From positions 1-64,000 of the forward strand of contig PAPR01000065.1 in the NCBI GenBank assembly GCA_002709085.1: DNA of 64,000 bases. Reading direction: 5' to 3'. Positions within the stretch are counted from its first letter, which is position 1, and every line of letters begins with the position of its first letter. Positions 24,028-26,508 of the stretch are shown in pieces. Origin of the DNA: Pseudooceanicola sp. (GTDB lineage Bacteria > Pseudomonadota > Alphaproteobacteria > Rhodobacterales > Rhodobacteraceae). The position numbers and the translations under genes are program-made. The notes under the pieces are model-generated. The model searched no databases. It saw nothing but the letters and a program-made list of their open reading frames with translations, and was not told the origin of the DNA.

Positions 24028-24513
24028 CTATTTGCGAAACTTATCCAATTGTACGATGTCGGCGTCCGGCGCGCTCTGATCCTTGGCACTGTCATTGCCG
24101 GAGTCGTCCTTGCTGTCGCGCTGCGAATGCGACGGTTCGGGATCGTCGTCGGATGTCTCGTCCTGCGTTTCGAACCGCAACCCGAATTCTACCGAAGGGT
24201 CCACGAAGGTCAAAATCGCGTCATAGGGGATATAAAGCCGTTCCGGCGAATCTCCGAAATTTAGTGTGATACCAAAGCCTTCGTCGGTCACGATAAGGTT
24301 GTCATACCAATGCTGCAGCACCACGGTCATCTCGCTCGGATAGCGATCCGTCAGCCAGTCGGCGATCTCGGTCGCGCTATGCGTGGTGTCGAAGGTGATA
24401 AAGAAATGATGGCTGCCCGGCAGTCCGTTGTCGGCCACGTCCTCCAGCACTTCCTGAATAAGCCCGCGCATGGCGCGATGCATCAAGTTACCGTAATCAA
24501 TCGAACGCGACAT
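24028..24513 (-). CDS. sspB: SspB family ClpXP adaptor
   Basis: MSRSIDYGNLMHRAMRGLIQEVLEDVADNGLPGSHHFFITFDTTHSATEIADWLTDRYPSEMTVVLQHWYDNL. Confidence 0.9.
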   Translation of the reverse strand: MSRSIDYGNLMHRAMRGLIQEVLEDVADNGLPGSHHFFITFDTTHSATEIADWLTDRYPSEMTVVLQHWYDNLIVTDEGFGITLNFGDSPERLYIPYDAILTFVDPSVEFGLRFETQDETSDDDPEPSHSQRDSKDDSGNDSAKDQSAPDADIVQLDKFRK

Positions 24514-24730
24514 AGAGACTTCCAGAGATTTCGCTTTGAGCATAGGGGATTCGCGCCAAAACGGAAGGGCTGTATGGCTGGATTCCCGCCCCGTGACCAG
24601 TCTCCGGGGACAGAGATGCCATTCCAGCGGGCCGCGCCCTATGTCGCTGGGTCAAACATGCCGGGTAAGGAAGGCCACCAAAGTCCAAATAGGGCCGAAA
24701 CCCGTAACTGGGACTGCGAAATAGTCTGGT

Positions 24731-25070
24731 AAAACAGGGGGTTAGTGCAGGCTTCTGTTGCCAGGTGCCTGCGAACCCCGCCTTACGTCGCTAAACGCAA
24801 GGGCTTAGAGTTTCGATTACTCGAACTGCTTACGCAGCGAGAGCAACCGGAGCACGATTGTCATTTGCAATTGTACTTGTCGGGCCGATACGGTGGCACC
24901 CCGCCGAAACAAAGCAAACCCCTTTAGACGTTCGTCGATCCTATTTCGACCCCATGACCCCCAAATGAAGGGTGTTTGGTGGAGTCGCCGGGTACCGCCC
25001 CCGGGTCCGATCCGCTTATTACGAGCGCGTTTATGTTCATAGTCTGTTGCCAGACAGTTGAGATATAGGG
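24731..25070 (-). ncRNA. ssrA: tmRNA, circularly permuted two-piece form; outer ends approximate
   Basis: Minus strand 24868-24830 reads GCAAATGACAATCGTGCTCCGGTTGCTCTCGCTGCGTAA = ANDNRAPVALAA*. Acceptor end GGACCCGGGGGCGGTACCCGGCGACTCCACCA ends at 24977, upstream of the coding-piece start GGGGTCATGGGGTCGAAATAGGATCGACG (~24961). GGGGTC pairs with GACTCC. 3' hairpin GGGGTTCGCAGGC...GCCTGCACTAACCCC followed by TTTT near 24731. Confidence 0.92.
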
Positions 25071-25160
25071 GTGATCCTGCGCGATTTCAAATGCGATCTT
25101 ACAGAAAAAGCGCTGATTTCGCGGGAGGGGCGGCCGTGACGGTCGCCCCTCAATGCAGCG

Positions 25161-26414
25161 TCAATCAGCGAGCCTGACAAGTGCATGACGCTTTTTACCT
25201 GCCGACAGTTTGATCGGGGTGGAAAGCGCCTCGGCGTGGATCATCAGACCCGCATCGCTCAGTGGTGCGTCATTCATGCGTGCGCCGTTCTCTGCAATCA
25301 GGCGCTTGGCCTCCTTGCCGGTCTTGGCGAGGCCCGTGCGCACGAAGAGCTGCGCGACGGAAACGCCGTTATCCGCCTCTTCCGCCGTCAGCTCCAGTGT
25401 CGGCAGATCGGCCCCGACGCCGCCCTTCTCAAAGACTTCGCGCGCCGTGGCTTCGGCGGCCTGGGCCGCGTCCTCACCGTGGCAGAGGGCAGTGACGGCA
25501 TTGGCCAGCGTGATTTTCGCGTCATTGATCTCGGACCCGCCGAGCGCGCCGAGGCGCTCGCATTCATCAACCGGAATCTCGGTATAGAGCTTGAGGAAAC
25601 GTCCCACATCCGCATCCGTGGTGTTGCGCCAGAACTGCCAGAACTCGTAGGGGCTGAGCATATCGGCGTTGAGCCAGATCGCACCGCCCTGGCTTTTGCC
25701 CATCTTGCGCCCGTCCGAGGTCGTCAGCAGAGGGGAGGTGAGGCCATAGATCTCGTGATCGAGCACCCGGCGCGTCAGATCGATCCCGTTGACGATATTG
25801 CCCCATTGATCCGACCCGCCCATTTGCAACAGGCAGCCATAACGACGGTTCAGTTCAAGGAAATCATAGGCTTGCAGGATCATGTAGTTGAATTCGAGGA
25901 ACGACAGCGACTGCTCACGATCGAGCCGCGACTTGACGCTTTCGAAACTCAGCATCCGGTTGACCGAAAAATGCCGCCCGATGTCGCGCAGGAAATCGAG
26001 GTAGTTCAGCTGGTCCAGCCACTCGGCGTTGTTGAGCATCAGCGCGTCCGTCGCGCCGTCGCCGTAGCTGAGGTACTTGGCAAAGACCTGTTGCATCCCG
26101 GCGATATTGTCGGTGATCTGTGCCGGGGTCAGCAGCGGGCGTTCGTCCGCGCGAAAGGACGGATCACCCACCTTGGTCGTGCCACCACCCATCAGGGTGA
26201 TCGGCTTGTGCCCGGTCTTTTGCAGCCAGCGCAGCATCATGATGTTGAGCAGATGACCGACATGCAGCGACTGTGCCGTCGCATCATAGCCGATATAGGT
26301 CGGAACCACCCCTTTGATCAGCGCGTCGTCAAGGCTTTGATAATCGGTGCAATCGGCGAGAAAGCCGCGCTCCATCATCACACTCATGAAGTCGGACTTG
26401 GGATGGTAGGTCAT
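25161..26414 (-). CDS. tyrS: Tyrosyl-tRNA synthetase
   Basis: [26 protein letters not shown] (HIGH-type) and [14 protein letters not shown] (KMSKS-type); S4-like C-terminus. Confidence 0.97.
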
Positions 26415-26508
26415 GTCTCTTGTCCCGGGTTGCTGTGCAGGGCACTCTATAGGTCCAGGGTTGGCAAAGGAAAAGACCGTGTCGAGGGCAGGTGACAAGA
26501 AAGGGCCA

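Follow-up and report, generated by a model that had tools for sequence, protein, structure and literature searches.

A review (PMC3985003) describes the two-piece, circularly permuted tmRNA found in alphaproteobacteria and covers its function in Caulobacter, and the permuted form of the tmRNA gene is represented by 11,946 unique sequences (PMC11915505). The adaptor SspB attaches to the tmRNA tag and increases the affinity of the tag for ClpX; for alphaproteobacteria, the review cites Lessner et al., 2007, on this point. The gene described here was found in a window of 64,000 nt of contig PAPR01000065.1 (Pseudooceanicola sp., assembly GCA_002709085.1), in which positions were counted on the forward strand. 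It resembles the alphaproteobacterial two-piece tmRNA (RF01849; Caulobacter crescentus ssrA) in its permutation, in its two pieces, in the G.U at the third acceptor pair, in a tag that starts with ANDN and ends with AA and in a match to the full length of the model. No substantial difference from that system was noted, the tag ANDNRAPVALAA and an intervening segment of 23 nt both being the usual form in the family. With the permuted tmRNAs of betaproteobacteria and cyanobacteria (RF01850 and RF01851; merged model RF04321), the gene shares the permutation and the tRNA-like domain, and it matches RF04321 (tmRNA_permuted) at 25038-24830 (138.8 bits). The fit to the alphaproteobacterial model is far closer (306.8 bits) and extends to sequence beyond the tRNA-like domain.

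Layout of the ssrA locus

A first-pass annotation of the window had proposed a circularly permuted, two-piece alphaproteobacterial tmRNA gene at 24731-25070 and had suggested a covariance-model search with RF01849 (alpha_tmRNA) as a check. This search, performed with cmscan, gave an end-to-end match on the minus strand from 25094 to 24744 (model positions 1-355 of 355, 306.8 bits against a gathering score of 50 bits, E 1.3e-88). Independently, ARAGORN called a permuted tmRNA (tmRNA*) at 24739-25069 with the tag ANDNRAPVALAA. The proposed gene limits were about right, and the identification itself was borne out by the full-length RF01849 match, by the ARAGORN call and by the covariation between the two pieces described below. 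Since RF01849, RF04321 and ARAGORN all match, the level of chance resemblance is far exceeded. The parts of the gene and its neighbors are as follows.

24744-25094, minus strand: ssrA, the whole permuted tmRNA gene (bounds of the RF01849 match; ARAGORN tmRNA*, 24739-25069)
24977-25055, minus strand: acceptor piece with its CCA end at 24977, which also holds the 5' strand of helix 2 and the 3' strand of the acceptor stem (RF01849 structure mapped onto the sequence; the 5' limit is that of the mapped structure, and the mature 5' end may lie elsewhere)
25055-25042, minus strand: upstream hairpin of the acceptor piece (RF01849 structure)
25004-24988, minus strand: T arm of the acceptor piece (RF01849 structure)
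24954-24976, minus strand: intervening segment of 23 nt (distance from CCA to G1 of the coding piece)
24744-24953, minus strand: coding piece, with the acceptor 5' strand GGGGUCG, a D-like region, the 3' strand of helix 2, the tag reading frame and a 3' hairpin
24830-24868, minus strand: tag reading frame ANDNRAPVALAA with its stop TAA (39 bases)
24028-24543, minus strand: sspB, directly downstream, ClpXP adaptor for tmRNA-tagged proteins (PF04386, E 3.5e-44; PDB 2nys, E 3e-29, 2qas and 2qaz)
25161-26498, minus strand: tyrS, tyrosyl-tRNA synthetase, upstream neighbor (TIGR00234, 340.5 bits)

The order of the parts is the permuted one, in that the acceptor piece with its CCA end (24977) precedes both the coding piece (from 24953) and the tag reading frame (24868-24830). 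The acceptor segment CTCCACCA was located on the minus strand at 24984-24977, exactly where the first-pass annotation had placed its end, and the tag frame that it had read, GCA AAT GAC AAT CGT GCT CCG GTT GCT CTC GCT GCG TAA, was confirmed at 24868-24830 on the same strand. Its estimate of approximately 15 nt for the intervening sequence did not hold, as the CCA, which ends at 24977, is separated by 23 nt from the G at 24953 that opens the coding piece. The 3' end of ssrA probably lies near 24744, judging from conservation, since the bases past CACT are not conserved in relatives. An additional outer helix, in which GGGGTT would pair with an AACCCC just past the modeled 3' end of the coding piece, was considered and rejected, the AACCCC being not conserved in relatives. 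The sole match in a promoter scan was weak and inside the gene, and means little. Translation of sspB may instead begin at an internal ATG (24513).

Pairing between the two pieces

The acceptor stem that joins the two pieces consists of G24953-C24981, G24952-C24982, G24951.U24983, G24950-C24984, U24949-A24985, C24948-G24986 and G24947-C24987, followed by a discriminator A and CCA. The determinant of alanine charging is the G.U at the third pair of this stem, and this pair (24951.24983) was invariant in all 35 aligned sequences. The inter-piece pair 24985-24949 was G-C in 21, A-U in 6, C-G in 4 and U-A in 4 of the 35 relatives, so that compensatory changes have produced each of the four Watson-Crick types. 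Over the whole structure alignment of these 35 relatives, 96.4% of cells were paired and 14 pairs had changed on both sides, whereas none of 500 shuffles reached either the observed paired percentage or the observed covariation score, and pairing fell to 32-48% in a control in which the 3' partners were slid by 1-3 columns. The acceptor stem and helix 2 between the two pieces are thus supported by covariation across 35 relatives. The hairpin at the 3' end of the coding piece (GCAGGC...GCCUGC) covaried as well, C-G having changed to G-C in 7 sequences and to U-A in 11. One pair of the model, 25012-24931, was non-standard in 34 of 35 sequences and does not count as a true pair in this gene. The single-strand fold was more stable than those of shuffles (z -3.8), although the fold of lowest energy is not necessarily the one that functions.

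The sequence, the structure and the copy number, which is one tmRNA in the assembly, are shown by the present analysis. A decayed, non-functional remnant of a tmRNA gene, left for example by an integrated element, is brought to mind by the partial second tmRNA-like matches that occur in a few relatives (e.g., G013 and G097), but the match here is full-length with a score near the best in the family, the conserved helices and the tag reading frame are intact and the gene is the only tmRNA copy present, all of which make such a pseudogene very improbable. Short open reading frames of 60 and 49 aa do span the interval on the plus strand, as might be expected of a protein-coding region on the opposite strand that resembles tmRNA by chance, yet this reading is already refuted by the covariance-model match (E 1e-88) and is further opposed by the covariation and by conservation at the RNA level in nearly all relatives, so that its probability is negligible. 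It is close to certain that the interval 24744-25094 is a normal ssrA gene, present in single copy, of the kind that alphaproteobacteria carry. This ssrA gene is an ordinary, routine and already described feature.

Tag, distribution and the SmpB partner

The tag reading frame has a resume codon for alanine, the stop TAA and a hydrophobic end in Ala-Ala (ANDNRAPVALAA). The first-pass annotation had described the tag as short at 12 codons; the length is correct, but it is not unusual, since tags of this length were the most frequent in the relatives examined. The commonest tag among the loci examined was the 12-codon ANDNRAPVALAA, which was identical in several relatives, the tag length was 12 codons in most loci examined and the intervening segment measured 22-24 nt in most family members examined. 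Of 199 genomes in the family, 190 carried the tmRNA gene, as did 107 of 115 in the class, and the two-part tmRNA is present in nearly all alphaproteobacteria. Given the common tag, its usual length, the usual segment and this wide distribution, nothing about the tag or the permutation stands out in this group.

Several departures from the common form were noted among relatives. Tags of five loci from the same genus (L065, L067, L068, L070 and L073) and of L020 were ANNNRAPVALAA or ANNNRAPMALAA instead of beginning with ANDN. The altered position is one that normally stays constant in the tag, and the change might influence how SspB binds. The intervening segment of one congener (G193; L009 / L076 1526-1881) was 47 nt, approximately 24 nt longer, and contained an extra ACCACC-like sequence. 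No match to RF01849 was obtained in five genomes of the family that are rated 96-100% complete (G064, G110, G112, G132 and G165); sub-threshold matches to RF04321 were seen in two of the five and smpB was present in four, and the missing RF01849 matches are probably assembly gaps. Second, weaker or partial tmRNA matches of 41, 38 and 73 bits were noted in L074 (G013), L075 (G097) and G315 and could be remnants of integration events. In G013, the second match lies approximately 7 kb from the full gene, and no integrase was recognized by eye among open reading frames of at least 180 aa between the two copies.

No match to smpB was obtained in the present assembly, which is 77% complete. The gene was present in all 22 congeners tested and in all relatives that are at least 90% complete with low contamination. 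The genes that come after smpB in the congener G193 code for an SseA-like protein and an aminotransferase, and these two of the three genes flanking smpB were likewise not found in the 77% complete assembly, while the third, on the other side, gave only weak paralogue matches (26-34% identity). True loss of smpB with retention of tmRNA was considered but is a poorer reading than an assembly gap, as the assembly is incomplete and the flanking genes are also missing. With smpB carried by all 22 congeners, an assembly gap is the simplest reading.

Proposed function and the sspB neighborhood

From what is known of the family, we infer processing, charging and tagging to proceed as follows. The gene would be transcribed from the minus strand as one precursor with the acceptor piece ahead of the coding piece, and tRNA-type processing, as in Caulobacter and other characterized two-piece tmRNAs, presumably removes the 23-nt intervening segment and the flanks. 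By the same analogy, the two resulting RNAs would stay joined through the acceptor stem and helix 2. The alanine-charged tmRNA with SmpB would then free stalled ribosomes and append A+ANDNRAPVALAA, so that tagged proteins would end in a C-terminal AANDNRAPVALAA and would pass to ClpXP, with delivery probably by the SspB of the adjoining gene.

The product of this adjoining gene scored 151 bits with PF04386 (gathering score 27) and matched the solved alphaproteobacterial SspB structures 2nys, 2qas and 2qaz, which we take to be Agrobacterium and Caulobacter proteins; 2qaz carries the name SspB in the match table. An SspB gene was present inside the 1.5 kb flank of 21 of 27 oriented tmRNA loci outside the family and of 9 of 41 tmRNA loci in the family sample. 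The ssrA-sspB order is seen repeatedly in different alphaproteobacterial families, often with fumC next. Longer flanks were re-read for 19 family loci that had shown no full-length SspB match close by, and in 13 of these sspB lay 1.4-3.6 kb downstream in the same orientation, with fumC after it. Since sspB is close to the tmRNA gene outside the family and lies at this greater distance before fumC in 13 of the 19 family loci, the order ssrA-(inserts)-sspB-fumC looks ancestral, with the insertions later. The broader proposal, that ssrA-sspB (often then fumC) is an ancestral alphaproteobacterial neighborhood, possibly with shared transcription, and that tagging RNA and adaptor are co-inherited or co-expressed, is offered tentatively and is rather doubtful. 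The titles and abstracts searched contained nothing on ssrA-sspB adjacency, and because the original papers on SspB and on Caulobacter tmRNA fell outside this search, no claim of novelty is made for it.

The gene itself is of value for annotation only, in that ssrA occupies the stretch from tyrS to sspB and has been missed wherever an annotation leaves this stretch blank. The one mildly interesting part is the recurring ssrA-sspB order, which is a small lead on co-expression or co-evolution of tag and adaptor.
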